Shown here: positions 6,897 to 39,750 of the stretch, piece after piece
Position numbering within the stretch: the stretch's first letter is position 1
Layout of the letters: the number at the start of each line of letters is the position of its first letter
Source: Prorocentrum cordatum
Taxonomy: Eukaryota > Sar > Dinophyceae > Prorocentrales > Prorocentraceae
Direction: 5' to 3'
DNA: 64,000 nt
Assembly: GCA_963575745.1 (NCBI GenBank)
Contig: CAUYUJ010001747.1
Location: 496,836 to 560,835, forward strand
Notes under the pieces: generated by a model
What the model was told of the DNA's origin: nothing
Databases searched by the model: none
What the model saw: the letters and a program-made list of their open reading frames with translations, nothing else
Position numbers and translations under genes: made by a program

Positions 6897-6985
6897 AAAA
6901 ACGGACCGGGGTGGGGAAGGATCGAGAGACGTTGACAATTTCACACGCCTGAGAACCCAAAAGGGGCCGGACGATATCAGCCGCC

Positions 6986-17686: not shown

Positions 17687-18892
17687 CTACGTGCTCTTCC
17701 AGTATGACTTGCCTGGAGCGCCGGTGTATCATGAGAGGCTCGTGACAGGGGTCTCGATCGGAGATCCAGGTCTTGTCAGCACGTACTCGCCAGATGGGGA
17801 CCACTACGCAGAGTACACGACGTCCGACGACCTCAGAGATGAGCGGTGGTCGGGAGCGCAGGGCGCCACCCCCCCGGTGTCAACCCCGCCCACGTCTACC
17901 GCTTCCGCCAGGTGCCGACGGCGGCCGAGGTCCAGCAGCTGATCCGCGAGGGCTCGCTCCTTGTCGGGGGGGTGGCGCCGCCTGCTGCCGCTGCCCCTGC
18001 CGCCGCAGCGGCGCCCGTGGCGGCTCCTCCCGCGGCGGCCGCACCACAGGGGGCCATCGTGCCTCGAGGCGCTGGCGTGGTGGGAGGGGTCCCCCGCGCT
18101 GGAGCCGCGGCCGCCCCCGCGGTGGCTGGCACAGTGCGGCTGGCTATCGAGGACTTCCAGGGGATGCGGCGCGGCGAGCAGATGCCTGATCCTCTCCCGC
18201 AGGGCGCCGTCGTTCACGGGGAGCTGGCGCTGGTGCCTCATGGAGGGGGCTTCGTCGGAGCGCGCCAGGTGGCCCTAGCCGACGTGGACGCCTTCGTCGT
18301 GGACGACCTACGCGTGCTGCCCGTGCGTTTCAACCAGCAGGGGGCGCGCCGTCGCCCATACAGCGAGGCCGTGGACATGCAGATCGCGGATGAGCCTGAG
18401 GGCGGCATCATGCTGCAGGGCCCTCGCACTACGGATTGGGTGCTGAGGTCGTATCGGGATGCCGGGCTCACGCCAGTCACTCACCACTCTAACTGGCTGA
18501 GGTCGGCTCGCATCCCTGATGGAGATCGTTCAGTTCACGAACACGAGGTGCTGTGCCATGTGCTGGAGGCAATCGTGACCGTGGACCAGCTCAACGCCCC
18601 TGTGCTCCAGAGCGCCGAGCTCGTCGTGCGCAGGATCCAGGTCATCGAGGACGCTCACTCAGCCTCTCCCTCGAACCCAGACTACTCCGCGGCCGACGAT
18701 TTCATGGGCTGGGCCACTCATCGCCAGGGCGCCGCCGTCGCGCCCGACCTGCAGCGCCACGTGGCCGCGGGCATGCGCGACAGGGCAGCGATCCTCAAGG
18801 AGGCTCGCAAGGCGAAGGAGGAGCAGAAGCTGCGCCGCGGCAAGGGGGGCGGCAGGACCGACGCCAGCGGAACTGGCGGGCAGGGCTCATGA
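17670..18892 (+). pseudogene. Gag-like ORF of the YR retrotransposon, with a C-run frameshift
   Basis: Translation starts at ATG 17670 in frame 3 (about 66 codons, including Y-H-E-R-L-V-T-G-V and P-D-G-D-H-Y-A-E-Y) and must change to frame 2 at the C7 run near 17870-17876, where C8 would keep a single frame. Frame 2 runs to TGA 18890-18892 through an Ala/Pro-rich linker, G-P-R-T-T-D-W-V-L-R, a helical region and a basic Lys/Arg/Gly-rich tail suited to nucleic-acid binding. Its TGA overlaps the pol ATG as ATGA. Gag role is inferred from position upstream of RT. The shift may be a mutation, a sequencing slip in the homopolymer, or a used slippery site. Confidence 0.6.
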
Positions 18893-20541
18893 CGGCTCCC
18901 AGTCGCGGGGGCTGGCCGGCCCGCGACGTACACAAGGCCTGTGGTGCCTCGGCGGCACGCACCTTCCGTCCTCGCACTGTTCCTGGCGCTGAGGGTCGTG
19001 GGGCGCCGACCGACTGTGGCCGCGGGGGCCCAGCGGCACGCACCTCACGTCCTCCAGCCAGGGCAGGCTTCGGGGATCGCGAGGTACCGACCGTCCGAGG
19101 ATCGTGTGACATGGGACGCCCTCCTGGGTTGAGTGCAGCAGACGATCGCCAGCGTGATCTGTTCCCGCTGCCCTCCATTCAGCCGGCTCCGCCTACTTCT
19201 GCGCCGGCGTCTACGTCGACGAGGCGAAGGCTGGCCCATAGGCGGCAGACGGAGCAGTGTGCCAATGATGCCATTGCGGGCCTCAACGCTCTCCATCCTC
19301 CGTGCGAGCAGCGTGGGCCCATCACGGCGGCTCAGCGACTCGCTACCGCCACCATTTTGAGCGAGGTCAGGATGGCCCCGAAGTCTGACACTCACTTTTC
19401 TCGCCGTGGAGCCGCTAAGGAGCTCCTGGCCTCCAGCCTGTCCTACACCGCGGACGAGGCACCGAGTCCCGTGGTAAGGTACGTCAGATCCCGAGTCGAC
19501 ATCCCAGAAGTGGGTGCGGTCATACCTCCTGTTGAGTCGGTGCTCGACGGGATCGGGAGGAGCTACGTGCTGGACTACGAGCAAGCGATGATGAAGACTC
19601 CTGACGAGTGGTCCCGCGTCTTGGATAGCGAGCCGCCCGTCACTCCCTACATGGGCGAGGTTTTGAAGTGTGACCGTGTGGCATACCACACCTTCATCGG
19701 CGACCTGGTGAAGGCTAACATGCTGGGTTTCACGTACCGCCCAAAGGACTTAGTCACCCCTTTTTTCGTGGCCAAGAAGAGTGGAGCACAGCGTCTCGTC
19801 TGGAACGCTAGAGTGCCAAATCGACGTTTTCGCGACCCGCCGCCGCTGGCCATGGGGACATCGGCTGCGTACGGTCGCCTACAGCTACCTGATGATCGTA
19901 AGGAGGACGGCAGCTTCAGCACTGCGCTCTTCTGCGCCCAGGCTGATGTGCGCAACTACTTCTACGCTCTCGGCCTGAGGGAGGAGCTGGGACTGTTCTT
20001 CTCGCTGCCGCCGGTGTCGCAGGCTTCGTTGTCGCAATGGGGGGTTGAGGCAGTGGGCACTCCCGAGGGCCCCTCAGGGGGCTGGGTGTGGCTTTTCCTG
20101 CGGGTCGTTCCGATGGGCTGGTCTTGGGCTTTCTGGCTTGGGCAGCGTGCGAATGCGCACGTATGCTGCTCTGCCTCGGGGCTCGGGTTCCCGCGGGTGC
20201 TGACCGATCACGGTCCGGTGCCCCCGCTCGACGGGGGGGTCCCTTGCCTCCTCCCCTATTGCGATAACATCAACGTCATCGGCACCGACCCTGTCAGATG
20301 CAATGTCCTGATGCGCCAGATCTGCGACGCCTGGAGGAAGCATGGCGTGCAGATTCACGAGGTGGTCGAGGCCACTGACGTCTTCACCAGCCTCGGCCGT
20401 CTGATCGACGGCGCGTCTGGGCGAGTTTTCTCACGGCCCGAGCGCTCCGAGCGCCTCCGCCAAGCTTCACTGTGGCTAGAGCAGCGCCCTAGAGTCACGG
20501 GGAGGGAGGTGGAGAGGTACGTGGGTCATCTCATTGATTGA
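18889..20541 (+). CDS. Reverse transcriptase, N-terminal part, truncated by transposon insertion
   Basis: The ATG at 18889 is chosen because it overlaps the gag stop (ATGA), consistent with coupled re-initiation. RT motifs: C-A-Q-A-D-V-R-N-Y-F near 19935 (motif A), V-P-M-G-W-S-W-A-F-W near 20107 (motif B) and Y-C-D-N at 20257-20268 (motif C). The second Asp of the usual Y-x-D-D is Asn. The frame ends Y-V-G-H-L-I-D followed by TGA, and that TGA is the first three bases of the inserted transposon. The missing RNase H resumes at 31319 in the phase expected after clean excision. DIRS-like RTs copy element RNA into a circular DNA used by the recombinase. Confidence 0.85.
   Translation: MTAPSRGGWPARDVHKACGASAARTFRPRTVPGAEGRGAPTDCGRGGPAARTSRPPARAGFGDREVPTVRGSCDMGRPPGLSAADDRQRDLFPLPSIQPAPPTSAPASTSTRRRLAHRRQTEQCANDAIAGLNALHPPCEQRGPITAAQRLATATILSEVRMAPKSDTHFSRRGAAKELLASSLSYTADEAPSPVVRYVRSRVDIPEVGAVIPPVESVLDGIGRSYVLDYEQAMMKTPDEWSRVLDSEPPVTPYMGEVLKCDRVAYHTFIGDLVKANMLGFTYRPKDLVTPFFVAKKSGAQRLVWNARVPNRRFRDPPPLAMGTSAAYGRLQLPDDRKEDGSFSTALFCAQADVRNYFYALGLREELGLFFSLPPVSQASLSQWGVEAVGTPEGPSGGWVWLFLRVVPMGWSWAFWLGQRANAHVCCSASGLGFPRVLTDHGPVPPLDGGVPCLLPYCDNINVIGTDPVRCNVLMRQICDAWRKHGVQIHEVVEATDVFTSLGRLIDGASGRVFSRPERSERLRQASLWLEQRPRVTGREVERYVGHLID
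20530..20538. repeat. 9-bp target-site duplication, left copy
   Basis: CTCATTGAT immediately precedes the left inverted repeat; the identical nine bases follow the right one at 31310-31318. Confidence 0.9.
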
Positions 20542-20600
20542 GAGGGTTCTAATGAGCCGAATCAGAGGGGGAAGCCTCTGGCTACTCCTCCTCTGGGCCT
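20539..20600 (+). repeat. Left terminal inverted repeat and subterminal region
   Basis: Bases 20539-20552 (TGAGAGGGTTCTAA) are the perfect part; to about 20600 the sequence matches the reverse complement of 31247-31309 imperfectly. Confidence 0.85.
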
Positions 20601-21162
20601 TCCACGTGAGCCCACCTCAGGGCCTCGAGCCACTGACGGTGGCATGCTTCCTTCGCGACTAGGTAACATCGAAACCTCACCCTCTCACCCTCATCTGTCT
20701 CATCAGACACTCAAACACGAATGAAATATTCAAGGAAATCGGAAAGCCCTTCGGGGCCGTTAACAGCAAAGAAGAACAACAGACACCTTGCCAGACAGCT
20801 GACAAACCGACATACCATCCAACGCGCTGCGTCCGTGTGGTCACCACGGTGGCTGATTTCTTCGATGAAAGCCATGTTGGGCCACGTTTGCGCAGAGGAG
20901 AGGCACGCGTTGAAGAGGGGAGCGAAGAGATTAAGAGGATGAAGAGGAAGATGAGGAGGAAGAAGAGGAGGAGGAAGAAGAGGAGGAGGAAGAAGAGGAG
21001 GAGGAAGAAGAGGAAGAGGAGGAGGGACAAGAATGCGGAAGAGAAGGATGATGCGGAGAAGGAGGGGGTCAACACCCTCAGCAGCACAGACGTGTATGAG
21101 GGGCAATGCCACCGCCATCACCATCCACTGTCACTCACCACAGCCGTTTTGGCTAGCTCGCT
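20601..21162. other. Transposon 5' non-coding region with a GGA/GAA purine tract
   Basis: Between the left TIR and the first transposase exon there is no recognisable coding signal. A (GGA/GAA)n tract occupies about 20934-21035 on the + strand. The promoter of the transposase gene should lie here, but dinoflagellate promoters lack a reliable visible signature. Confidence 0.5.
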
Positions 21163-22338
21163 ATGTTGGTTGCGAGTTCACATCAGAATGCGGATGTGAT
21201 ATCAAGAGCTGCTGTGATTGAGGATATCGTGGCTATCGTTTCTGTGTCAAAGGGCAGCTGCCGTGGCGATGGGATTTTAAGGTGGCACGATTCTGCTCTC
21301 ATTGTGGAACGAATACTGCGAGATAATCCTTTCCCTAGTGTTCGAGCGTTGTCAGAACGCATCAAGTCTCATGTGTGCAGCCTTGGCGGCGATACGAACA
21401 GAAAAGACGCAGGCTTTGATATTAAGTTGTTCCCGAATGTCCTTTGGAAGTTCACAGACAAGATTATTGATCAATATGATATCGATGTCGTGTTGCGGCG
21501 CACTGCATATCAACCCAGCGCGATGTCGACGGCGCAGAGATCCAGGCGAGATTTAACGTTGCCGAGTGTTGCAGCTGCTAGCCAAGCCATTGTGGAATAC
21601 GAAACATGGGACCACGCTGAACTGGTACAATTGATTGCTTTGAGAGATGCACAGCTTGCTCAATCCGTGAAGGAAATTGACAGAACCAAGCGTGCACAGT
21701 GCAGAGCGAATGATCGGTGTGATGCATTGGTTGTGAAGAATACTGAGTTGAAGCAACAACTTGATGAGCTGATGCGCCGCGTGAACTACAGGGTTGGCAC
21801 GAGGAACGTCAGCTTGTACGGTGGCTATACAATAGCAATTCGAAAATCGAGAGGGCACGTTGCTTCGAGCACTGCGGTAGCTCTTATTGCTGGTGATGAG
21901 ATTCATGGTGCATTTCTTGACAAAAACATTGCGACTCGGTTCGAGCACAGAGTCAATGCTGCCCAATGCGCTGCGTCCAAAAATGATTACGATGTTATTT
22001 CTTCTTACGTGAGTGAGGTTCCAGACTCGCCAACCGAAGCCGTTCACAAGATGCAAGCTTTCTTGTTCAAAGGGGATGCGACACATTCAGAAGCTCTCGA
22101 AAAAAGTAAAGTATTCATATCATCTCTCCAATCTTGTGCTTTGGGACCCGCTCAGGTCGCATCTGCTGAGGTCCAAGTCTCGTCTGGCGCTCGCCTTTCT
22201 CAGGCGCTCAGGCCGGCAGTCACGGCGACCGATTGCGACCTCCAATTCTCTCGGCGTGGCGACGGTGAGGACAGCGGCATTGATGCAAACGCGGAGAGGT
22301 GGAGGAGGGAGGAAAGGAGAGATAGGAGGGAGGATTGA
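21163..22338 (+). CDS. Transposase-like protein, N-terminal exon (coiled coil)
   Basis: The frame opens at ATG 21163, inside the TIR element. Residues about 145-210 form a strong heptad-type coiled coil (A-E-L-V-Q-L-I...K-N-T-E-L-K-Q-Q-L-D-E-L), followed by S-L-Y-G-G-Y-T-I-A-I-R and A-L-I-A-G-D-E-I-H-G-A-F-L-D-K-N-I. The sequence is less GC-biased than its neighbours. The frame closes in a purine tract at 22338, and a plausible exon end is just before GTGAGG at about 22265, so the last ~25 residues (Arg/Glu-rich) are probably intron read-through. The coil may mediate oligomerisation. Joining to the next exon is inferred. Confidence 0.55.
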   Translation: MLVASSHQNADVISRAAVIEDIVAIVSVSKGSCRGDGILRWHDSALIVERILRDNPFPSVRALSERIKSHVCSLGGDTNRKDAGFDIKLFPNVLWKFTDKIIDQYDIDVVLRRTAYQPSAMSTAQRSRRDLTLPSVAAASQAIVEYETWDHAELVQLIALRDAQLAQSVKEIDRTKRAQCRANDRCDALVVKNTELKQQLDELMRRVNYRVGTRNVSLYGGYTIAIRKSRGHVASSTAVALIAGDEIHGAFLDKNIATRFEHRVNAAQCAASKNDYDVISSYVSEVPDSPTEAVHKMQAFLFKGDATHSEALEKSKVFISSLQSCALGPAQVASAEVQVSSGARLSQALRPAVTATDCDLQFSRRGDGEDSGIDANAERWRREERRDRRED

Positions 22339-22501
22339 ACAGGATCGTAGGAGCAGTGGCAGAGGGAAGGGGAGAGTAGGAGACGGAGCAGGAGAAGGTA
22401 GGAGAAGGGGTAGGATGCAGGAGGGACTCGGGAAGTAGGAAGGAGTAGGGAAGGAGAGCAGGAGGACGAAGGAGTGAAGGAGTTTTTTTTTGCGCCCGCA
22501 G
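22265..22501 (+). other. Candidate intron 1 of the transposase gene (purine-rich)
   Basis: The interval begins near GTGAGG, is almost entirely G and A from about 22290 to 22480, then has T9 and GCGCCCGCAG before the exon base at 22502. The T-run plus CAG is a normal 3' splice site. The donor is only a suggestion, since dinoflagellate introns often use GC or GA donors. Confidence 0.5.
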
Positions 22502-24316
22502 GAGCTTTACGAATTCATTAAGTCTGGGTTTCGGTCGTGTGGCACCGCAGATCTAGAGCAGCACCTGAACGCTGGCGACGAATCACAACTCACCATGTTT
22601 AACTTCGGCTTCGACCAGGGTCCTGACAACCAAGGCGTGATGAACATCATTGCAGGGATCACTTCGAAATCAAATCGGTTAACGTTCAGTGTGGTATGGT
22701 GCAATCTGCACGCCTCGCACTTGTGCGTGAAATCGATCCTGGCAGTGTTGGATTCGTGGGTCTGGGTTGATGCTGAACCGTTATGCACGAAATACTTCAG
22801 TGCTGTTGCAACGATTTCAAATATGTGGAGGAGCACTGGGATCATGAGAAAGTTGCAAGATGCCATCGTGGATCTGTACGGCGAAAGTGCTGAAGAAACT
22901 GCCCGCTGCAAAAAAATGCCTGGTCGAGTGCTCAGGGGTCGGTGGGGGTCCATCGATCAGGTGGAAGAGCTGCTCATCGATGAGATGTCTGTCCTGCCAA
23001 AGCTTTTCAACCACATCCTAGCCAAACCACCAAAGAAAAAACACAAGGCAGGCGTTGGTGACGAGGAAGCAGAACAATTTCAAGAACAACAATCGCTGTA
23101 CAGATCCAACACGCTATCTTTGTTGAACTCAACGGTCTTCAAAATCATGCTCATCGTATCAAAGGTGTCGAAGGCTCCGATCACGCGTTTCCTGTACTGG
23201 GCCCAGAAACAGATCAAGCTCTTCAACCAGAAATGCGTCAACGAGAACACTTACCTTGGACCAACCCCTCTGTCGAACTTCGTCACGGTTGAATGCGGTG
23301 AAACATACCAGACGATAAGTGATATGCTAGACCCAACATCCATGAACAATCCGAAGCTATGGGGCAGCGCGTTCTCACTTGTGCCTGACGGGAACACAGC
23401 ACTTCGTGGCCAATGCCTTCTGTTGGTACTGACGTGTGTGCTGACGTGTGCGGCGGCTTGGTGGATGAGATTTGTATCAACATTTGACCGATTCCCGTTA
23501 TGCCTACTGCACGTTGTATCGCGTCCTCATGATGAACCCGACGACAAACGTAAAGCACTTGCAACAATGTTACTCGATTTGCCAGGGTGCTGCTTACAGT
23601 CGAACACATCGGACTTCGCTGCGAAGTTGAAGGTGAACTTCCTCAGAGATATCGAATATATGAGAGACAGCGGACAGTGTGCACCCAGGATGTTTGCGTA
23701 TCTTCTGGTATGGCGACGAGAACTCCCCGTGGACACACAAGACATTGAAGGTCGCGCGTCTTCCCTGCAAGTCATGGCGAAAAGGGCACCAGGCCTCCAG
23801 ATCCCAGCAGCCAACAACCGCATGAAGGTCAAATACGGTATCAAGATGTCTGCGGAAGACTGCTGTGAGGTCCACGATCAGGTCGTCCAGTTCATGCAAT
23901 CAGTGGAGTGGTCTTGCAGGTTCACCCCGACTGTTTATTCTTGTGGCGTGGACTTGCCCGCTGGCGGAGCACGCGCATGCGCTCACCAATTCTCATTGCT
24001 GGATAAGTTTTGCAAGGCGTTGTCTTTGAACGCAACTGGGCACCACGGGGTGGATATCGGCCCCAAGAAGATCTACTCCATAGATGGCCAGTGGTTCTTG
24101 CTCTCCCCTTGGACCTTCAAGCGGTACAGCATCGCATTCGAGATGAGCCCGCCCGTGGTGATAGACGGCGGCGTGTGGCTGAGCAAGATACACAGGCCGT
24201 TCAGCGTGCGCTGGTTTCACGATCTCCTGAAGGTCATCCTGGTTCCCGCCCTCGGCGAGGATCCGCCCACGAGGGCTACCAAGGCTACAAGGGGGATGAG
24301 AAGGATGAGGAGATGA
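22502..24316 (+). CDS. Transposase-like core exon (hAT-like D...N / C-x2-H / R-W pattern)
   Basis: Translation from 22502 begins E-L-Y-E-F-I-K. Near residue 33 is F-D-Q-G-P-D-N, then W-C-N-L-H-A-S-H-L-C-V, then R-G-R-W-G-S near 142. An acidic D-x-A-x-N, a C-x-x-H-x-x-x-L and an R-W-x-S in that order are seen in the catalytic domain of hAT-type DDE transposases. Further on, D-I-E-G-R-A-S-S-L near 415 could supply the last acidic residue. A Lys-rich P-P-K-K-K-H-K segment near 180 suits nuclear import. The frame enters a purine tract at about 24285 (second intron). It is the strongest transposase candidate in the element. Family assignment is inference. Confidence 0.6.
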   Translation, partial: ELYEFIKSGFRSCGTADLEQHLNAGDESQLTMFNFGFDQGPDNQGVMNIIAGITSKSNRLTFSVVWCNLHASHLCVKSILAVLDSWVWVDAEPLCTKYFSAVATISNMWRSTGIMRKLQDAIVDLYGESAEETARCKKMPGRVLRGRWGSIDQVEELLIDEMSVLPKLFNHILAKPPKKKHKAGVGDEEAEQFQEQQSLYRSNTLSLLNSTVFKIMLIVSKVSKAPITRFLYWAQKQIKLFNQKCVNENTYLGPTPLSNFVTVECGETYQTISDMLDPTSMNNPKLWGSAFSLVPDGNTALRGQCLLLVLTCVLTCAAAWWMRFVSTFDRFPLCLLHVVSRPHDEPDDKRKALATMLLDLPGCCLQSNTSDFAAKLKVNFLRDIEYMRDSGQCAPRMFAYLLVWRRELPVDTQDIEGRASSLQVMAKRAPGLQIPAANNRMKVKYGIKMSAEDCCEVHDQVVQFMQSVEWSCRFTPTVYSCGVDLPAGGARACAHQFSLLDKFCKALSLNATGHHGVDIGPKKIYSIDGQWFLLSPWTFKRYSIAFEMSPPVVIDGGVWLSKIHRPFSVRWFHDLLKVILVPALGEDPPTRATKATRGMRRMRR

Positions 24317-24610
24317 GGAGTAGAACGGCGAGGGGAGGGGGAGGAGGAGAGGGAAGATGAGAGGGGGAGGAGGAAGAGCAGGAGGAGGGAGGAGGTGGGA
24401 GGGATGGGGAGGACTTCAGGAGGATGAGGAGGAGAAGGGTAACGAGTTTTTTTTCGTCGAAGCCGTCGAAGCCTGCGGCAGAGCAGCCAAGTAACAACAA
24501 ACGCACCTTCGCACCTTAAGGCCCTCTTGGGCCCTTCCGTGGTCCGAAATCCTTTGGCGCTCCCGTGGTCCGACGCCAGTTTATTTCAACAAAAAGCATC
24601 GCCTTCGCAG
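24285..24610 (+). other. Candidate intron 2 of the transposase gene (purine-rich)
   Basis: A/G-only DNA runs from about 24285 to 24440, followed by a T8 run at 24447-24454 and, at 24605-24610, TTCGCAG before V-E-L-R-Q-Y in the next exon. The layout repeats that of intron 1. Confidence 0.4.
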
Positions 24611-25648
24611 GTTGAGCTGCGCCAGTATGCAGCTACCTGGACGTCAACAGACACTTGCGAAGTACATGGCGTACCTGTCGCCACCTTTACACTGGAGGTC
24701 GTTCGGCCGCCGAAGGCGGCCTGCGCGGCGCCTGCGCCTGCTGACGTCGCCGCTGCCGATCCTGCCGATCCTGCTGGCCGCGACGGTGGCGATGGTGGCA
24801 GTGATCTTGAGCTCGGCGCAGACCTCGCTCGCATCATCGAGGAGGCCGAGGCCGCGGCCGAAGCTGACGAAGATGCTGGCGATGGCGTGTCTGGCGGCGC
24901 TGACATCGCTGACGATGACGTCGGAGATGATGGTGCTATACCAGAGCCTGTCCCCGAGCCTGATGTCCATGATGAGCTTCCACTGCCACCGCCCGCTGAT
25001 GCCCCCCCGCTTCCAGATGGGCTGTTGGATGCGATAGTGGCTGCTTGCGGGCGCGGCCGCGATCAGGTCGGAGTTGCTCGTGAGAACGCCAGGTTGCACT
25101 CGGATGGGAAGGCGATCGTCGACAAGACGATATCATTGATGGCATTTGCTGAAGAGCGTGATGAGGTTGAGGTCCGTTTTGTTTATTGGGGGGCTGGTGC
25201 GAACGAGATGGAGGGGAGACGAGTCAGGCTAGACATCAACAATCGGGTTGTGTTCGTCGTTGCCCATGTTACGCCTGTTGTCAAGTTGCGGAACTGCTCT
25301 GAGGTGAGGGCAATCATTGTTGATGTGCCCGTCGCAATGGCTAAAGCCACAGGCGCAGGGAGAGCGGATATGCCCGAGTGGTGTCTGATCGTGCAGCAGT
25401 GGGAGCTTGCTCAATTGCATTCTGGGCCTTTCAGTCGCACAGAAAGCGACGGCATGCGCTGTGTTGTGCGCACGCTTGCTGATGAACGTAGGGCCGCCTC
25501 TCCATGTAAGGACAAGTGTGCCGATGATGTCAGATGCAAGCGGTGCTTGAAGTATTGGCATATAGATTGTGCACTGGCAATCGACAACGTATTCAATCTC
25601 ACTGACGAAGGGTTCGTATGTGGCATGTGTACCAAAGCTGGTGGTTAA
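24611..25648 (+). CDS. Transposase-like C-terminal exon with PHD finger
   Basis: The frame continues in phase from 24611 (V-E-L-R-Q-Y-A-A-T-W). An Ala/Asp/Pro-rich acidic linker (residues about 30-135) is followed by a folded region and, at the end, a C4HC3 PHD-type finger: C-x3-C, C-x2-C, W-H-x2-C, then V-C-G-M-C, with TAA at 25646-25648. PHD fingers read histone H3 tails, and their presence in a transposase gene could steer integration or chromatin opening. Dinoflagellates package most DNA without bulk nucleosomes, which makes the domain notable. An independent gene is possible if intron 2 is not real. Confidence 0.6.
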   Translation, partial: VELRQYAATWTSTDTCEVHGVPVATFTLEVVRPPKAACAAPAPADVAAADPADPAGRDGGDGGSDLELGADLARIIEEAEAAAEADEDAGDGVSGGADIADDDVGDDGAIPEPVPEPDVHDELPLPPPADAPPLPDGLLDAIVAACGRGRDQVGVARENARLHSDGKAIVDKTISLMAFAEERDEVEVRFVYWGAGANEMEGRRVRLDINNRVVFVVAHVTPVVKLRNCSEVRAIIVDVPVAMAKATGAGRADMPEWCLIVQQWELAQLHSGPFSRTESDGMRCVVRTLADERRAASPCKDKCADDVRCKRCLKYWHIDCALAIDNVFNLTDEGFVCGMCTKAGG

Positions 25649-25885
25649 TTTGTTTCTCGGGATCGAGATTGCCTGGCGGCGTTCGCCAGACTAACGAGCG
25701 CTTGAGACTGAACTGGCATCATCAACATCACCAACATCGTCTCATCATCGTGGTTCGCATCAGCTTTTTCTGCCGCGGTGGGCGTCCCACAGATTGCAAT
25801 CACGATGTGGTCGAGACCACGCGCTTGATACATCCTTGCTTTCGGTCGGAGTTTAGTCGGCTATCTCATAGCAAGCGTCTGGTCC
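25649..25885. other. Spacer between transposase gene and satellite
   Basis: No open frame with a protein signature. It contains the 3' end of the PHD-encoding gene; no AATAAA-like signal is expected in dinoflagellates and none is seen. Confidence 0.4.
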
Positions 25886-26851
25886 AGATGGCTATCCCGT
25901 GGCATGCCTGATCTCCCGATGGCTATCCCGTGGCCATCCTGAGGCCCAGATGGCTATCCCGTGGCCATCCAGGAGCCCAGATGGCTATCCCGTGGCCATC
26001 CTGAGGCCCAGATGGCTATCCCGTGGCAATCCTGAGGCCCAGATGGCTATCCCGTGGCCAGCCTGAGGCACCAGATGGCCACCCCTTGGCAATCCAGAGG
26101 CCCTAGATGGCTATCCCGTGGCAAGCCTGAGGCCTCAGATGGCTACCCCGTGGCAAGCCTGAGGCCCCAGATGGCTATCCCGTGGCAAGCCTGAGGCCCC
26201 AGATGGCCACCCCGTGGCAATCCACGGCTCAGATGGCTACCCCATGGCAATCCAGAGGCTCCAGATGGCTATCCCGTGGCAATCCTGAGACCCAGATGGC
26301 TACCCCGTGGCAAGCCTGAGGCCCCAGATGGCCACCCCGTGGCAATCCACGGCTCAGATGGCTACTCCGTGGCAATCCAGAGGCTCCAGATGGCTATCCC
26401 GTGGCAATCCTGAGTCCAGATGGCTACCCCGTGGCAATCCAAGGAGGGGAGGAGGGCATATGGCTACCCCATGGCACTCCAGAGGCTCCAGATGGCTACC
26501 CCGTGGCAATCCAAGGGGCAGATGGCTATCCCGTGGCAATCCCGAGACCCAAATGGCTTTCCCGTGGCAATCCAGGGGGGGGGGAAGGAGGGCAGATGGC
26601 TATCCCGTGGCAATCCCAGGCCTCAGATGGCTACCCCGTGGCAATCCAGGGGGCCAGATGGCTATCCCGTGGCAATCCCAGACTCCAGATGGCTACCCCG
26701 TGGCAATCCATGGGGGGCGGAAGGGGAGGCAGATGGCCATCCCGTGGCAATACTGAGGCCCATTTGGCTACCCCGTGGCAATCCTGAGGCTCCGATGGCT
26801 ACCCCGTGGCAACCCTGGAGCCCGAATGGCTATCCCGTGGCAATCTGCAGG
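25886..26851. repeat. Tandem satellite of about 30 copies, ~32-bp unit
   Basis: The core AGATGGCTA(T/C)CCCGTGGCAA recurs about 30 times with 27-45 bp spacing. Filler between cores varies (CCTGAGGCCC, TCCAGAGGCT and short purine inserts such as GGGGGGGGAAGGAGG). All + frames stay open and read variants of M-A-T/I-P-W-Q-S and G-N-P, but no start context or conserved termini support a protein. The array ends about 190 bases before the start codon of the 1167-codon gene. Confidence 0.92.
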
Positions 26852-26936
26852 GACCGAGGCCTCCAGAAGCACCGGGCTGAAATCGGCGGCGCTGCCCTCC
26901 CTTCCCTACGGGTGACCCTACGTGAAACGCCTCACG

Positions 26937-26958
26937 TCCGTAGCTATTTGTGCTCACG
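26937..26958 (+). other. Relic dinoflagellate spliced-leader-like sequence
   Basis: The 22 bases starting TCCGTAGC and ending TGCTCACG match the dinoflagellate spliced leader at 18 of 22 positions without gaps (mismatches at positions 9, 14, 15 and 21). A shorter second match, AGTTTGCGCTCAG, follows 6 bases later, as if two leaders stood in tandem. The leader is normally added by trans-splicing and is absent from genes, so its genomic presence 84 bases before an ATG marks a reverse-transcribed mRNA. Confidence 0.65.
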
Positions 26959-27041
26959 GTTTAGTTTGCGCTCAGTGCAAGTGTACACCGCCCACCACTA
27001 GACCGAGAGAGAGGGAGATAACACCTTGAGTTGCTTTCGCA

Positions 27042-30000
27042 ATGTCGAGCCTGGGCGCCTCTTCTTCTGCTGACGGGAGCCAGCAATCTAGCGCTGCCGC
27101 CGCTGCTGTGGCCGCGCGCGTGGCCGAGCGCACCATCGCCGAGATCGAGGGCGACAAGTACGACGACAGCGGCAAGTACGCAGACTTCGCGGATCGCTGC
27201 GGAGGGACGAGGTCGCCCCTGGAGCTCCTCGGCATGTGCGAGCAGCTCTACTGCGAGAACGCGGACTGCCGCCTCTCGCTCGTGGACGAGACGGGCTTGT
27301 GGACTACCGACCGCCACCCCCTTAACGCAGAGGGACGCGGCGACGAGGACAGCGTCTCGCAACGGGAGGAGAGCGTCACTAAGATCGGCATCATAGATAT
27401 TCGCAAGGGGCCATGGTACATGAAGTGCCCAGAGCACATGAAGCGCGAAGTTCGTCCAGGAACGCAGTACTTGCTGTTCCACTGGGGCACCCTGCTTGAG
27501 GGGGCAAGGCGAGCTTTCGCCAAGGACGGCCAGAAGAAGAATCGCACAGTACAGCTTTCCGTCATGAACGGTGTGAAGGCGTGCAAGGAGTTCAACATTC
27601 GCATGCCGAAGGACGCCATCAGGTTTCTCATCAACGTTGGCAACCTCGTCAACGATCAGCAGACGCCGAAGACGTTCGTGGAGATCTTGGAAAGCACAGA
27701 CAGCATTGAGATGGCATGGACGAAGAAGAAGAACGCGAACAATTGGTCTGCTCCAGCTTTGGGTGGACAGGCGAAGCTCGAGGAGTACAAGTTCGAGTTC
27801 ATCAAGACCTTGTCGAGGGATTGGAGGACGTATCGCAACTACGAGCTGTGCAACACGTTCTACAAGGAGAGCAAGAAGGTGTTCACCGACGGTACCACCA
27901 CTGTGTGGGCGGAGTTCAAGAGGCGCGCCCTTGCCGAGATTGCGTTTACTCAACCTTTGGCGTCGAAGCATGAGCGGACCTTCATCGTCCTCGCCTCTGT
28001 CCTTCGGAAGTTGCGCTACAACCATCCTCAGTTCATCGTGGACGTCATCATGCAGTACTTCCCAAGGACCCCTACAGCAGGCAACATCGGCAAGGGCTTC
28101 CTGCATTCCGAAGGACTGGCGCCCATCGACGTCTTCAAGGAGGATGCGATCGACACTTTGATGGAGTCTATGAAGGAGTCGGCTGTCTGGAAGCAGCTCA
28201 AGGCGGACAAGGCGAAGCGCAACGAGATGCTCCTGCAGGCTGCTCAAGAGGCGCAGTCAGTTGTACAGCCAGAAGGCGAGGCAGCGGGTAGCAAGAAGGA
28301 TGCGAAGGAGCTGAAGAAGAGCCAGAAGAAAGCCGAGATAATCAAGAATAAAGCCCCGAAAGCAGACCTCGTCATCGACGAAGAGAACGACGTGGAGTTC
28401 CTGCACCACCTTCGCGAGACAATCGAGTACATGATGAGGGTCGACTCGACGAGGGACTGCGACATCGCGTCTTTCAAGGACCTCGCTATCCGTGGCTGCC
28501 TGATTGAATCAGTGGAAGTTCTGAAGGGGAAGGGCAAATCCAAGCTGAACGGGTTCTCGGCTCCTCGCAAGATTGCCAAAGCCGCGCTGTACAAGAACGC
28601 GAACTTGGCGCCGAGGCCGTCTGATCCAGACTTCCTTGATGGTGAACAACCTGTGACTGAGGAAGAGCAGGCTGCCTTAGCGACGACTGCAATCGAGGAC
28701 TTGGCGATCACAAGGGCTACCGCGGACGAGAAGGCAGAGGAGTACATCTCGCAGATTGCAGCGATACAGTGCCACTTCGTCGAGAACAACAGCATGCTCC
28801 CCATCATGGGTCGCATGTGCGCTGCGAAGGCTTTGAGCAGCGCGATGGGCAGGGTGGCTGAGATTGTGCAGAAGCAGACGGTCTTCGAGTCCTTGAAGGA
28901 GGCGGCGCTCGCTATTACCCAGGCTGCCATTGAGGAGGTGCGCGTGGTGATTCCAGCTGAGTGGGACATCGTCGTAGACTTCATCGTCAAGGCAAAGGCG
29001 CAGGACAAGCTAGACGACATCGCGCTCACCGACTGGAACAAGCTACTCAAGCTGGACAACAACTTGTCCAACGGCTCCGTCTACCTCGACCTGCTGAGGG
29101 TGCAGCTGTGGATGCACATGTGCAGCGTCCTCGGTTTGCAGTGGTGCACTGTGCGTGGGGGTGCCGACCAGCAGAAGCAAGCCAAGTTCTTACCGCAGCT
29201 CGTGCACCAATCACTGCTGGAGGCGACGGGTGATCTCCAGTCGAGCGTGGCCCAGCCTTTCGACTTCAAGGCGCCCGAGAAGCTGAACAGCATCACCAGG
29301 GAGTTCATAGAGTACCTTGGCTTGCGGGGTAAGTCTGAGGCGGGCATCAGCAAGCCCGTGCACTGGGAGACGTGGGTCGCGGCGTGGGTTGAGGAGTCCT
29401 TCAGTTGCCACGACGTGGCAATCTCGGCCGATGGGCTCGGCTACAAAGTGAAGAAGGCCCGTGACTTGTGTGTTCTGCAGGGAGCGACGGCAGCGCAGAT
29501 GAAGCACTTCATCAAGAACAACATCAAGAAGGAGCTCAAGGTATCGGCCCAGGTGGACGTCTTCACGAACGAGAAGAACAAGCTGTTGAAAGAGATCATG
29601 GAAGCGATGGACGCGGAGCACGCGGCGGAGTTAGCCTCCGAAGCGGTTCAATCGGCTCCGACGCAGATGATATTGAACCGAGTTGCGCTGCAGACTAAGC
29701 CCGCGCTGAAGGAGCCCAAGTCGGAGAAGAAGAAGGATAAGAAGGCCATCCAGAACGGTGAGAGCGACGAGTCTGACAAGCAGGCTGCGGAGAAGCCCCT
29801 TTTGCGAAATTGGTTCACTGAGGTCAAGGAGCGAGAGTCCGCTGGGAACGCATGGACCTCGGAGCTCATGAAGAAGGTGATCTCCGCCGCGGTGTCAGCG
29901 AAGATTACGGAGGTGCTGTTGACCGAGGGCCCTTGCCAGCCAGGCTGCAACCTGGCACTCGACATCAAAGAGGAGGGGACAGCGAAGGGCACGAAGAAGA

Positions 30001-30545
30001 TCTCAGTGGATATCATTCGCATGAACGTTCCCAACGCCACCGAGTGCAAGCTCCCGTACTGGGGGAAGGTCGTGGACGGCAGCGTTGCCCAGCACATGCC
30101 GAGGCACTCGGTCATGCAGCTGAAGCTTGCAAGCGGAGACGGACCAGACCTCTGGCTCGACGGAGCTCAGTTTCAGAATGTCAAGCGCAGCGACTTCTGC
30201 CCAGCGTGGCTCATCACGTACGCGCAGCCCGTGGACAAAGACAAGGACAAGGACGCAGTTGTGCAGGAGCCGCCGAAAAAGAAAGCGAAGAAGTCGGCTC
30301 AGGGAGTCAAGTACGACCCCTTCGACACGCACGAAGTTCACTACGAGCCGATGCCGATCGCGATCCACGTGAATGGCGAGGCCCACATTTTCGACTACAC
30401 AAGGCCGTACCTGAAGGACGTCACTGGCGATGGCGTGCATGTGTACGGCATCCCGTGCCACCGCAGCGCGGTGGACAGCGACGAGATGGACATCAAGAAG
30501 AAGGCCAAGGCGCATGAGGCCGCCTCTGGCTTTGCAGCCCAATAG
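27042..30545 (+). CDS. Uncharacterised 1167-residue protein, intronless, cargo of the DNA transposon
   Basis: The ATG at 27042 is the first after the spliced-leader relic and opens 1167 codons without a stop, to TAG at 30543-30545. I recognise no named domain. Visible parts: an Ala-rich N terminus; a Cys cluster (C at about 54, 68, 73 and 78, with K-C-P-E-H near 130); a largely helical middle; a Lys-rich linker near 415-435; another charged Lys/Ser segment near 885-920; P-P-K-K-K-A-K-K near 1080, a good nuclear-localisation signal; and a basic C terminus. The neighbouring transposase has a similar basic signal, so both may act in the nucleus. Absence of introns next to a multi-exon transposase gene supports retroposition. 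It could be captured host cargo or an accessory transposition factor. Confidence 0.75.
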   Translation: MSSLGASSSADGSQQSSAAAAAVAARVAERTIAEIEGDKYDDSGKYADFADRCGGTRSPLELLGMCEQLYCENADCRLSLVDETGLWTTDRHPLNAEGRGDEDSVSQREESVTKIGIIDIRKGPWYMKCPEHMKREVRPGTQYLLFHWGTLLEGARRAFAKDGQKKNRTVQLSVMNGVKACKEFNIRMPKDAIRFLINVGNLVNDQQTPKTFVEILESTDSIEMAWTKKKNANNWSAPALGGQAKLEEYKFEFIKTLSRDWRTYRNYELCNTFYKESKKVFTDGTTTVWAEFKRRALAEIAFTQPLASKHERTFIVLASVLRKLRYNHPQFIVDVIMQYFPRTPTAGNIGKGFLHSEGLAPIDVFKEDAIDTLMESMKESAVWKQLKADKAKRNEMLLQAAQEAQSVVQPEGEAAGSKKDAKELKKSQKKAEIIKNKAPKADLVIDEENDVEFLHHLRETIEYMMRVDSTRDCDIASFKDLAIRGCLIESVEVLKGKGKSKLNGFSAPRKIAKAALYKNANLAPRPSDPDFLDGEQPVTEEEQAALATTAIEDLAITRATADEKAEEYISQIAAIQCHFVENNSMLPIMGRMCAAKALSSAMGRVAEIVQKQTVFESLKEAALAITQAAIEEVRVVIPAEWDIVVDFIVKAKAQDKLDDIALTDWNKLLKLDNNLSNGSVYLDLLRVQLWMHMCSVLGLQWCTVRGGADQQKQAKFLPQLVHQSLLEATGDLQSSVAQPFDFKAPEKLNSITREFIEYLGLRGKSEAGISKPVHWETWVAAWVEESFSCHDVAISADGLGYKVKKARDLCVLQGATAAQMKHFIKNNIKKELKVSAQVDVFTNEKNKLLKEIMEAMDAEHAAELASEAVQSAPTQMILNRVALQTKPALKEPKSEKKKDKKAIQNGESDESDKQAAEKPLLRNWFTEVKERESAGNAWTSELMKKVISAAVSAKITEVLLTEGPCQPGCNLALDIKEEGTAKGTKKISVDIIRMNVPNATECKLPYWGKVVDGSVAQHMPRHSVMQLKLASGDGPDLWLDGAQFQNVKRSDFCPAWLITYAQPVDKDKDKDAVVQEPPKKKAKKSAQGVKYDPFDTHEVHYEPMPIAIHVNGEAHIFDYTRPYLKDVTGDGVHVYGIPCHRSAVDSDEMDIKKKAKAHEAASGFAAQ

Positions 30546-31293
30546 TGGGCAGCAGGGCTCCCAGGCGCGCAACTCAAGGCTAAGGGAGGGAGGGGGAGGA
30601 TTGAGGAAGGAGGGAGGAAGGGAGGAGGATCCACAGGAGGACAGGAAGGAATAAGGGAAGGAAGAAGCACACGCGTCACTCGAGTTTGGTCAGCGGCGCC
30701 TCGCAGACGCATCTCTCTTTAGTTCTTTAGTAAGTACATCGGAATTGCTGACGACAAATCGGAGACGCCTGAGACACGACAGTGCTGTGACCGTTTTCCC
30801 AAGGTCGCATGTTTATTTCCTCCTTCCTGTCCTACCGCTCCTCCTCTTTGCCTCTGGCACTGGCTTACCAATGCCCTCCCTTTCGAGTCGCGCAGTGGCT
30901 TGCGGGTCTGCCGCAGCAACGACTCGACGGCACGTCGCTCAGGACTAGGATCGTCTCCCTAGCGAAGCAGAGTTCGAGAGTGAAAAACGACAAAACAAGT
31001 TTCGTGCTCTGATTTGTCGGCGCTTGACTTTAGTTTTCTTGAGGCCAGGGCCGAAAACACTTGATTCAGGTCAAGGTTTGGTTGACAGAGTTCCTGGACA
31101 GAAAGCAAAACGTCAGGACATCGAAAGCTTCAGAGTAAACCAAACAACCCTCCAGGAAAAAAAAACATTGGACCTACAGAGTCGGTGATTCAAACATCGG
31201 CCTTCAGAAATCTATGAGAAGCTCTCCTGGGTGGCAGCCCCAGGAGCCAGGAGGAGGCAGAGTAGCCATCACCTTTCCCCTCCCAAACCCTCA
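30546..31293. other. 3' region of the cargo gene and right subterminal region
   Basis: A purine tract follows the stop (about 30585-30665). An A9 run at 31157-31165 could be the trimmed poly(A) end of a retroposed transcript. No other gene signal is seen. From about 31247 the sequence mirrors the left subterminal region of the transposon. Confidence 0.4.
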
Positions 31294-31295
31294 CG

Positions 31296-31318
31296 TTAGA
31301 ACCCTCTCACTCATTGAT
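31296..31318. repeat. Right terminal inverted repeat (31296-31309) and target-site duplication (31310-31318)
   Basis: TTAGAACCCTCTCA is the exact reverse complement of the first 14 bases of the element, and CTCATTGAT repeats bases 20530-20538. Confidence 0.9.
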
Positions 31319-32110
31319 CATTTGATGCTGAAGAGGGAGCTGCTCTCGATCCTCAGGAGTTTGTATGATTTCGTCAGAGATTGCTATCACGTGCGAGCCC
31401 GTCTCTGGCCCTCAGCTGCCCGCGAAGTCGAGCAGTGCCGTCGCCTGCTGCCGCTGATGTCTGCTAACCTTCGGCTTCAGTGGTCGCCGACGGTCTTCGC
31501 TTACGACGCTTGCTTGACGGGTATGGCGACGTGCCAGGCAACATTGTCATCAGATCTTGTCAAACGTATCGGGTCAGTCAGTGAGAGATGGAGATATCGC
31601 ATGCCTTCGGCTATCTCGGCACGCCGCTCTGCTCTGGGAGTCCGTTCTGGAGGCCACGAGGCCTCGGAGGGGCCGTTCGACGTCTTCAGCGACATCGAGA
31701 CCGCCAAGGCCCCCAAGAGCACCAGCGTGGACCTCGTCAAGGACCCCTGGGAGCTCAACCCGCAGTTCACAGAGGTGCCCGTACAGGCTCTGCAGGGCCC
31801 CCAGTGGAAGCAGGTGGTCTCGGCCAGGGTTCACGTCAAGGAGCCCATCACTATTATCGAGGGGAGGGCCTCGAACATGACATCTCGTCATATCACAAGG
31901 GCCCAGGCCTCCTTTGGTCTCCGTCATCTACGTTTCGGGGACAACCTCGGCACCGTGCTCGCGCTCGGACGTGGGCGATGCTCCTCCTATCCCCTTCTGC
32001 TGTGCTGCCGCAGAGAGGCTGCCTACTCCGTCGCCACTGCGTCGCGGTTCGAGCATCGGTGGATACCTTCGGAGCTCAGCCCCTCCGATGAGGGGTCGAG
32101 GCGCTGGGAT
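31319..32110 (+). CDS. RNase H domain of the YR retrotransposon RT, continuation after the nested insert
   Basis: Directly after the second target-site copy the frame reads H-L-M-L-K-R-E-L-L-S-I-L, the segment that normally joins RT to RNase H in DIRS-like elements. Catalytic landmarks follow: A-Y-D-A-C-L-T-G near 31500, an E in I-I-E-G-R-A near 31857, F-G-D-N-L-G near 31935, and W-I-P-S-E-L-S-P-S-D-E-G-S-R near 32060. The phase is exactly that left at 20538, so one excision event would give a continuous RT-RNase H. The frame stays open into the recombinase region, but the protein signal changes to frame 3 at about 32109. Confidence 0.82.
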
Positions 32111-33482
32111 GCCAAGTCGGGAGGTGTCTCGCCTGCCCCGCGCGGTGTCCGTCAAGCGCCCAGCCGCCAGCCCCAAGATCGTGCAGAAGAGCTTTTTGAA
32201 GGGCAGGCCGTTTGTTGGGGCGACGAAGGAGGAGAGAATCGCTCACCGTCTGCGGGCCTCTGGGCCGTTCACGATGGTGGGGGAGGACGAGAGGGGCTTC
32301 CTGGAGTGGAACGCGGTGGCGCCCGAGACCCAGGCATACTACAAGGACGCCCTCGACGACTTCCAGACGTTCGTGGACCTCTTCGAGCTGCCGCTGCACA
32401 CCGCGGCTCAGGTCGACTTGGCGCTGATGAACTACGCCGACTACGCCTGGAGCATCGGGCTCGAGAGAGCCGCCGTCCTGAAAACATATGCCGCGTACAT
32501 CTCGGCGCACCCCGACTTTTCCCGAAAGGGGTCGCTCCGCCTGCCGCGTTTCTGTCGGGCCCTCCAGGGCTGGAGGCGCCTGGACCCAGGCCAGACGCGC
32601 CCGCCCATGCCCTGGCAGGTGGTCGCGCTGGTCGCGCTGGTGATGGCCACGCAGCTGGGGTCCCCGCGCGCGGCGCTCATGGTGGTGACGATGTTCTGGG
32701 TGTACCTCAGGCCCTCCGAGGCCGTCGGCCTGCGCGAGCAGGACCTCTTCCTCCCCTCGGGCTCGTGCACGGACTACGGCTTCAACCTGCACCCCAGCGC
32801 GAGGGGCGAGTGCAGCAAGACCAGCTTGTCGGACGAGAGCTTGCTCCTCGATTCGGTCGAGGTGCCCTGGCTGGGCCCGCTGCTGGCGCGCGCGAGGTCG
32901 GGGGACCCGCAGGCGCCGCTGTTCCGTCTCACCGCCGCGCAGCTGGGCGTCCCGTGGCGCAAGTCGCTGGAGCTGGCCGAGGTGCCCACCAGGTGCGTGC
33001 CCTACCAGCTCCGCCACGGTGGCCCGTCGCACGATCGCCTCAAGAGGTATCGATCCATGGACGAGATCAAGAGGCGCGGGCGGTGGGCCTCCGACTACAC
33101 GATGAAACGCTACGAGGCCCACGCGCTGGTGCAGCAGGAACTTGCAGCGCCCCCAGTCGACGTCCGCCGCAGGGCCGAGGCGGCGCCCGCGAAGCTGCAC
33201 GCCGAGCTCGAGAGGCTCCTGGCGCGGCCCCAGAGGCCGCGGACGGCCACGCCGTCGGCGCGGCTGCAGGCGGCGCCTGCGCCCAGCATGCGCCGCCCCG
33301 CACCTTCTGCCAAGGTGCCGCAGCCCGCGCCCGTGCCAGGCCGTTCGTCGAGCTCATGTGCGGCTCCGCCGCCCTGGCCAAGGCCGTCCACGCCGCCGGC
33401 TGGGCTTCGGAAGGCTGGGACTACGCTGACGACCCGCGAGCCGACCTTCTTGATGAATCCCTCATCGACAGTCTGGTATTGA
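32109..33482 (+). CDS. Tyrosine recombinase (integrase of the YR retrotransposon)
   Basis: The ATG at 32109 starts inside the end of the RNase H frame, in another phase. A basic N terminus and a helical arm domain (residues about 60-150) precede the catalytic domain: Arg in Y-L-R-P-S-E-A-V-G-L (codon 32709-32711), R-H in Y-Q-L-R-H-G-G (33012-33017), R-R-G-R-W-A-S near 33075, and nucleophile Tyr in K-R-Y-E-A-H (33111-33113). The R...HxxR/W...Y tetrad is complete. These enzymes integrate a circular cDNA by strand exchange without a target duplication. A Pro/Ala-rich tail runs to 33482 over the methyltransferase frame, the overlapping-frame layout known from DIRS elements. Confidence 0.85.
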   Translation: MPSREVSRLPRAVSVKRPAASPKIVQKSFLKGRPFVGATKEERIAHRLRASGPFTMVGEDERGFLEWNAVAPETQAYYKDALDDFQTFVDLFELPLHTAAQVDLALMNYADYAWSIGLERAAVLKTYAAYISAHPDFSRKGSLRLPRFCRALQGWRRLDPGQTRPPMPWQVVALVALVMATQLGSPRAALMVVTMFWVYLRPSEAVGLREQDLFLPSGSCTDYGFNLHPSARGECSKTSLSDESLLLDSVEVPWLGPLLARARSGDPQAPLFRLTAAQLGVPWRKSLELAEVPTRCVPYQLRHGGPSHDRLKRYRSMDEIKRRGRWASDYTMKRYEAHALVQQELAAPPVDVRRRAEAAPAKLHAELERLLARPQRPRTATPSARLQAAPAPSMRRPAPSAKVPQPAPVPGRSSSSCAAPPPWPRPSTPPAGLRKAGTTLTTREPTFLMNPSSTVWY

Positions 33483-34066
33483 GGATCTCACGGAAGGAGT
33501 TCGCGGGGGCGCATGTCGGCCTGGACTGCAAAACGTGGAGCCGGGCAATGAAGAATGATGGACGGGGTCCGCCGCCACTCAGGGACGATGCGAATTTGCA
33601 CGGCCTCCCTCTGCTGGCGGCAGCGGACGCTGAGAAGGTGAGGATCGCCAATCGTCTGCTCGCTAATGTTCTGCGCCTGCTGGCTGCTGCCGTCGAGGCG
33701 GGAGTCCCCTTCTCTCTCGAGAGCCCTCGCTCGTCTCGCCTCTGGCTTGTCCCAAAGCTGCTGGACATGGCCCGCGACGCTCACGCCGAGTGGGCTTCTG
33801 TTGATTATTGCCAGTATTAGGTCCCCTGGAAAATGGCGACTACCTTTTTGCTTTTCAATTGGCTGCCAGCGCAGCCTTCCCTCCGCCTGTGTACAGGCTG
33901 TCAAAAAAGGTGCAGTGCAACAGGTAAGGCACACATAACACTGAAGGGTAAAGACCCGCTCGGTGTGTTCTGGACTTCGAGGGCGTGCCCTTACCCTGCG
34001 GCGCTCTGCAAAGATCTTGCAGCGCTGGTGGTGGCCAAGGCCAAGACGCTGGATGGCAGTGGGTAG
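33338..34066 (+). pseudogene. Methyltransferase-like domain of the YR retrotransposon, one nonsense codon
   Basis: Frame 2 reads F-V-E-L-M-C-G-S-A-A-L-A-K-A-V, a glycine/serine-type SAM-binding loop, followed by W-D-Y-A-D-D (ribose-binding acids), G-L-D-C-K-T-W-S near 33525 and F-S-L-E-S-P-R-S-S-R-L-W near 33712. The C-x-T-W-S and E-S/N-P pair resemble motifs IV and VI of C5-cytosine methyltransferases. TAG at 33818-33820 stops it, but the same frame continues with P-W-K-M-A-T-T-F-L and C-x2-C residues to TAG 34064-34066, so the stop is probably a mutation. DIRS elements usually encode an adenine-type methyltransferase near this position; the role is unknown. Confidence 0.6.
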
Positions 34067-39702: not shown

Positions 39703-39750
39703 CTATCCGCTGACCGGGCGGTCGCAGCCGCGGCGAACGCGTCGCGAGCT

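Follow-up and report, generated by a model that had tools for sequence, protein, structure and literature searches.

Rehavkus, an outgroup of the Mutator-like elements (MULEs), is described as having a 9-bp target duplication, a PHD finger, and a minisatellite before its 3' terminal inverted repeat (TIR). It has one open reading frame (ORF) and is listed only in arthropods and annelids (PMC6446971). The MULEs have target duplications of 8 to 11 bp (PMC6446971) and DDE (Asp-Asp-Glu) domains of about 180 residues (PMC13359780). The duplication of hAT elements is usually 8 bp, with variants of 5 to 7 bp. Among the Kyakuja-Dileera-Zisupton (KDZ) transposons, it is 8 bp in Zisupton and Dileera and 7 bp in Kyakuja, and KDZ transposons can carry extra genes, for example TET/JBP (PMC12730594). 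The RAG1-RAG2 type of Transib has a transposase, a dedicated second gene, a PHD finger in RAG2, and a 5-bp duplication, for example CCAGG (PMC4411706). We compared these systems with a 10,771-bp element that interrupts a retrotransposon in the genome of the dinoflagellate Prorocentrum cordatum (assembly GCA_963575745.1, contig CAUYUJ010001747.1, positions 496,836 to 560,835 of the forward strand). We refer to this whole 64,000-nucleotide stretch as the window.

We consider it highly probable that the element is a two-gene DNA transposon that entered the retrotransposon with a 9-bp duplication. It is predicted to move by cut and paste through its own DDE-type transposase, with the product of its second gene (gene 2) likely helping. 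Our best reading of the lineage is one of autonomous two-gene cut-and-paste transposons, possibly a new superfamily. We hold in even balance a more specific proposal, that this is an undescribed two-gene superfamily, abundant and recently active in this genome, with a PHD-tailed DDE transposase that has a very large insertion domain. According to this proposal, the transposase would work only with a partner of about 1,100 residues that has travelled along with it since before its families had drifted apart to about 30% identity. Among the titles and opening lines of abstracts listed in our literature searches, we found no such two-gene DNA transposon described in dinoflagellates, with most subscription papers and Repbase outside their coverage.

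We read the edges of the element directly and placed them to the base at window positions 20539 and 31309. The borders are as follows.

20530..20538, no strand: left copy of the 9-bp target duplication, CTCATTGAT, read directly; a single copy in 6/6 host paralogues read
20539..20552, no strand: perfect part of the left TIR, TGAGAGGGTTCTAA; imperfect to about 20596
31296..31309, no strand: perfect part of the right TIR, TTAGAACCCTCTCA, read directly
31310..31318, no strand: right copy of the 9-bp target duplication, CTCATTGAT, read directly

The TIR is perfect over 14 bp and then imperfect, with gaps, to about 60 bp. The window holds 415 inverted 14-mer pairs lying more than 200 bp apart, and just one of them, formed by the ends of the element, is flanked by a 9-bp repeat matching at 8/9 positions or better. 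Thirty Markov-simulated sequences yielded one such pair in total, a lenient control because such sequences contain many fewer inverted pairs to begin with (on average 15.1, against 415 in the window). When the host flanks were joined by script, we found one open frame across the join (...RYVGHLIDHLMLKRELL...). An earlier note, made from the sequence alone, had claimed a 10,771-bp insert with TIRs, a 9-bp duplication, and frame-perfect borders, and direct reading and the join bore out all three.

The retrotransposon on either side of the element has the following parts.

18520..20538, + strand: left part of the host retrotransposon ORF, with a reverse transcriptase-like motif
31319..33820, + strand: right part of the host retrotransposon, with RNase H-like, tyrosine recombinase-like, and methyltransferase-like motifs in differing frames

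From these motifs, we take the host to be a tyrosine recombinase retrotransposon; a Pfam scan of three host ORFs gave no match. The methyltransferase-like motif, at window positions 33350 to 33820, ends the retrotransposon. This copy of the host looks frameshifted, as the frames switch between the RNase H-like, recombinase-like, and methyltransferase-like parts.

We searched the genome assembly (4,128,499,153 bases in 21,875 contigs) for the 300-bp left host flank. There were 40 scored matches including the window (40 of 67 candidates scored), and 37 of the 40 were 94 to 100% identical. We read 351 to 356 bp across the site at 6 of the 39 other places, picked from the best-scoring rows. All six had a single CTCATTGAT followed by the right-flank sequence of the window at 95.6 to 99.0% identity over 295 bp. 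We therefore rejected the idea that the segment is a constitutive part of the retrotransposon, since 6/6 host copies read are without it. The 10.8-kb segment was inserted secondarily into a repeated host element.

To find other copies, we used a query of 171 bases, comprising the 9-bp flank and the left end. It gave 13 matches including the window (13/13 candidates scored), and we fetched and compared the 12 others. A near full-length element was present in 10 of the 12. The C17088 copy is 99.45% identical over 10,771 bp, and the C19658 copy is 99.29% identical over its full length. This suggests that the three copies above 99% identity, counting that in the window, reflect recent movement in this genome. 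The remaining eight, which we call older copies, are mostly 84 to 89% identical, with similarity dropping to about 76% at the right end in five of them. Gaps interrupt gene 2 in the copies on C565 and C10001, and the latter also has additional sequence. The two other matches, on C11001 and C547, are short and terminal only. A further copy, on C11425, is known from protein searches only. Each of the ten fetched copies matches both genes and the minisatellite that lies between them.

Not all of the older copies count as independent insertions. Both flanks are common to the copies on C7328, C5896, C4364, C565, and C1229, and we treated these five as one event. Larger segments containing the transposon may have been duplicated in this group, or the five may be unmerged haplotypes.

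We compared target sites wherever both ends of an insertion had been read, which gave 11 distinct insertions, among them distant relatives in families C and D (described below). A 9-bp target duplication matched at 7/9 positions or better in 9 of the 11 and was perfect in 7. By insertion, the matches are as follows: window, 9/9; C19658, 9/9; C17088, 8/9; C5413, 9/9; C10001, 9/9; C16611, 7/9; C9520, 9/9; C21609, 9/9; C18733, 9/9; C15469, 2/9; and duplicated group, no clear repeat. The borders at C5413, C21609, and C18733 were set one or a few bases off the BLAST end so as to begin at the terminal motif. Registers of 8 and 10 bp fail, except for partial matches (6 to 8 positions) at the C-rich sites C19658 and C18733. 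C15469 and C9520 carry the same family C element; the left flank at C15469 is unrelated, and its right flank is the C9520 target duplication. The C15469 contig may be rearranged or misassembled, or the two copies may come from one insertion, in which case the count becomes 9/10.

The assembly is repeat rich, at 4.1 Gb, and the mismatched flanks of C15469 suggest rearrangement or misassembly of that contig. The junctions in the window could in principle be an artefact of this kind. We rejected this explanation, to which we assign a vanishingly small probability, on the strength of the copies with their own duplications and the six empty host sites; the window also has a perfect duplication and inverted repeats, and two of the copies with their own duplications are nearly identical to it. 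We regard the insertion as settled because full-length copies occur at other sites with different 9-bp duplications and because empty host sites exist. This upholds the view in the earlier note that a large DNA transposon sits inside a retrotransposon gene. Neither of the two outcomes that the note had named as refuting this view was seen: the host copies read are without the insert, and other loci have the same termini with target duplications of their own.

The first gene of the element encodes the candidate transposase.

21163..22266, + strand: transposase exon 1; start codon and end predicted, the end backed by similarity with P0003
22502..24232, + strand: transposase exon 2; ends predicted
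24482..25648, + strand: transposase exon 3 with the stop codon; start predicted; encodes an acidic linker, a conserved C-terminal domain, and a PHD finger

The three exons join into one 1,333-residue protein, a model supported by two relatives in which an uninterrupted frame (1,381 codons in one, 1,384 in the other) encodes the whole transposase. The putative introns (22267 to 22501 and 24233 to 24481) are purine rich, with a T run near the 3' end.

Exon 1 encodes GDATHSEA, which holds the candidate first catalytic D (residue 305 of the spliced model). Exon 2 encodes FGFDQGPDN (D406), CxxHxxH (435 to 441), RGRWGSID (513), and QDIEG (E784). An alignment of relatives keeps the [KQ]xD.T, FGxD..GPDN-like, CxxHxxH, RGRWGSxD-like, YLGPTPLS-like, and Q[DE][IV]EG motifs. 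D305, D406, and E784 are the candidate catalytic residues. Their spacing would be D-101-D-378-E, with 480 residues from D305 to E784. We computed the ratio of nonsynonymous to synonymous substitution rates (dN/dS) against the eight older copies (five of which belong to a single duplicated group) and found values of 0.25 to 0.36 for exon 1, 0.38 to 0.49 for exon 2, and 0.47 to 0.58 for exon 3. Alignments A3 and A4, in which exon 1 is partly misplaced, were kept out of all counts.

Exon 3 matches PHD_P300 with an E value of 1.3e-5 and 25.5 bits, against a curated Pfam cut-off of 27. PHD_NSD matches 2 of the 6 members scanned. The pattern CxxC...CxxCxxxxH...CxxC is present in L032, C21609, and P0004, and C15469 has a similar one. 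In the window copy of the finger, the first Cys pair is missing its second Cys, with extra Cys close by. Both genes described in the earlier note, one transposase-like with a PHD finger and the other 1,167 codons long, are present.

The order of these motifs raises the possibility of a divergent hAT-like or KDZ-like (Zisupton type) transposon. hAT transposases have the order D, D, CxxH, RW, E with a long D-E spacing, and the candidate motifs here follow that order, with a long, presumably helical stretch before E. A low-confidence, unreliable model likewise places a strand, a helix, and a strand ahead of CxxH, followed by a mainly helical stretch that runs to E. However, the 9-bp duplications at 9/11 insertions argue against hAT, in which 8 bp is usual and 5 to 7 bp occur in variants, and they also differ from the 7 to 8 bp of Zisupton, Dileera, and Kyakuja. 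Pfam holds MULE, hAT dimerization, KDZ, and TET/JBP models, and our Pfam scans gave no match to hAT (including its dimerization domain), MULE, or KDZ. We consider a hAT-like or KDZ-like origin unlikely.

We found that relatives of the transposase are numerous. In the protein searches for both genes, a small fraction of the candidates was scored. The search with exon 2, for which 74 of 1,178 candidates were scored, returned 77 rows, and there were 68 transposase places among the scored candidates. Rows beyond the close copies are 33 to 39% identical, many of them in stop-free open frames of 1,000 to 1,641 codons. We located the ends of distant elements by comparing two pairs of distant copies. 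Family C is represented by C9520 (11,221 bp; end, TGAGTAAAGG...) and family D by C21609 (10,038 bp) and C18733 (9,986 bp), with the end TGGTAAAGG.... Their transposases are about 30 to 38% identical to that of the window, and in both families the elements begin with TG and end with CA (TG...CA), are flanked by 9-bp duplications, and keep the two genes in the same order. The terminal pattern TGRG...AAYG is common to families A to C; the ends of family D are more diverged. Stretches of C8657 and C413 are 99.93% identical throughout, so the element ends cannot be delimited there.

In the protein database, the transposase matched two metagenome proteins, P0003 and P0004. An alignment-based query of that database returned nothing, even though it was built with both of these proteins, so this null result carries little weight. 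Among viral contigs, there were nine pattern matches and no relative. P0004, which has 31 member sequences, holds the C-terminal half of the transposase and a well-formed PHD finger; because of this, the group likely occurs outside this genome too.

Downstream of the transposase gene are a minisatellite and gene 2.

25884..26845, no strand: minisatellite with a unit of about 31 bp, between the two genes, matched in ten other near full-length copies
27042..30545, + strand: gene 2, a single open frame of 1,167 codons with no known domain

The minisatellite precedes the 3' inverted repeat by 4.5 kb, with gene 2 in between. In C9520 and C15469, the two genes are separated by a 43-bp array, whereas no array was reported at that place in C21609. 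Gene 2 has no meaningful match in Pfam and no significant match in PDB (best E value, 0.21). In the protein database (7,988 candidates scored), it matched itself and one Prorocentrum cordatum protein, 79% identical and annotated "unnamed protein product."

We searched the genome for gene 2 with queries from the window (40 of 836 candidates scored) and from family D (42 of 1,974), which merged into 44 places. Gene 2 lies on the same strand, 2.4 to 3.9 kb downstream of the transposase core, in 18/18 places with a scored transposase on the contig. These 18 comprise the window itself, eleven close copies, five of which come from the one duplicated group, and six distant relatives (C3503, C9520, C15469, C21609, C15273, and C3958), of which C9520 and C15469 are one family. 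By reading, the gene pair is also present in C18733, with a frame break in the transposase, and the sequence downstream of the L032 transposase matches the beginning of gene 2 (E value, 1.6e-7). Because gene 2 recurs beside distant transposases, it looks like a part of the element.

The eight older copies (L013 to L028) have an insert of about 110 to 130 bp in gene 2, at one place near window position 28174. In most of them, its ends are inverted repeats (TGGGGGCC.../...GGCCCCCCA), with an AAGGA duplication, and the three young copies are without it. In the P0002 gene model, the insert seems to be spliced out. The insert looks like an introner.

Gene 2 could instead be a passenger or a captured host gene with no role in transposition. 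It has no known domain, and its dN/dS of 0.67 to 0.82 between young and old subfamilies indicates weak constraint. In contrast, its relatives in other families, about 23 to 33% identical, keep the same place and orientation, and the alignment with families C and D is colinear over the full length. Open frames of 1,098 to 1,171 codons also persist in C3503, in family D, and in the family of the window copy. We judge the passenger explanation quite improbable. dN/dS for gene 2 is not decisive.

Several other observations, like that weak constraint on gene 2, count against a two-gene transposon with a DDE-type transposase. Neither C15469 nor the five-contig group has a target duplication, and stops or breaks in the frame interrupt all eight of the older copies. 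Among the candidates scored, 26 of the 44 gene 2 places are without a scored transposase, and 50 of the 68 transposase places are without a scored gene 2. Among the young copies, dN/dS is near 1 for exon 1 and 1.86 to 1.95, on very few changes, for gene 2. Intron 1 seems to need a GA (non-GT) donor. The second D is replaced by G in P0003, and the D of the adjacent GPDN is replaced by E in L032. The transposase has no transposase match in Pfam and none that is significant among PDB sequences, the PHD finger being the sole significant match. AlphaFold models of P0003 and the exon 3 domain are unusable (predicted local distance difference test scores, 34.9 and 37.7, respectively). For these reasons, we treat the DDE fold as predicted.

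According to our model of a two-gene cut-and-paste transposon, the transposase would bind the TGRG... termini, and its RNase H-like site (candidate residues D305, D406, and E784) would cut both strands. The 3' ends would then be joined to target DNA with a 9-bp stagger. The C-terminal PHD finger may tether the complex to chromatin at chosen targets. The gene 2 protein would act as a dedicated partner, for example in end binding, assembly, or targeting.

Dinoflagellate genomes are huge, and their cells package most DNA without nucleosomes. A PHD-finger transposase in such cells raises the question of its insertion targets. The group is large in one genome, if the 68 places already scored and the 1,178 first-look candidates are a guide. 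Elements of this kind are easily missed, having introns, no transposase match in Pfam, and a partner gene with a relative that bears no annotation beyond "unnamed protein product." The conserved partner gene is the part most worth following.

Elsewhere in the window, ORFs at 4722 to 11289 have Rep-like and helicase-like motifs and resemble a Helitron. Those at 39700 to 42302 and 50198 to 51148 resemble the reverse transcriptase and endonuclease of non-LTR (long terminal repeat) retrotransposons.

Inverted repeats and target duplications at independent sites, with empty related sites in 6/6 cases, place the element among class II TIR DNA transposons. By description, Rehavkus is the nearest known kind. 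Our element resembles it in its 9-bp duplication, in the PHD finger at the C terminus of the transposase, and in having a minisatellite beyond the 3' end of the transposase gene, and one could read it as a divergent Rehavkus element that gained a second gene. However, Rehavkus is described with a single ORF and with arthropod and annelid hosts only, whereas this element has two genes, a minisatellite followed by a 3.5-kb gene, and likely a protist host. The inverted repeats and the 9-bp duplication also fit MULE/Mutator elements, whose range includes 9 bp. In contrast, the 480 residues from candidate D305 to E784 far exceed the roughly 180 residues of the DDE domain described for MULEs; this long spacing argues against a standard MULE, and there is no MULE match in Pfam. 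We find a Rehavkus origin rather unlikely. Compared with hAT, the motif order and long D-E spacing are alike; the duplication is not, and an 8-bp register fails. Like KDZ transposons, this DNA transposon has more than one gene, but its 9-bp duplication differs from the 7 to 8 bp of KDZ elements, and Pfam gives no KDZ or TET/JBP match. MuDR carries two genes. If gene 2 is required, the element would be another two-protein transposition system, comparable to MuDR or RAG1-RAG2. Like the RAG1-RAG2 type of Transib, it combines a transposase, a second gene, and a PHD finger within the system. Unlike that type, with which it has no sequence match, it carries the PHD finger in the transposase rather than in the RAG2 position and makes a 9-bp rather than a 5-bp duplication.

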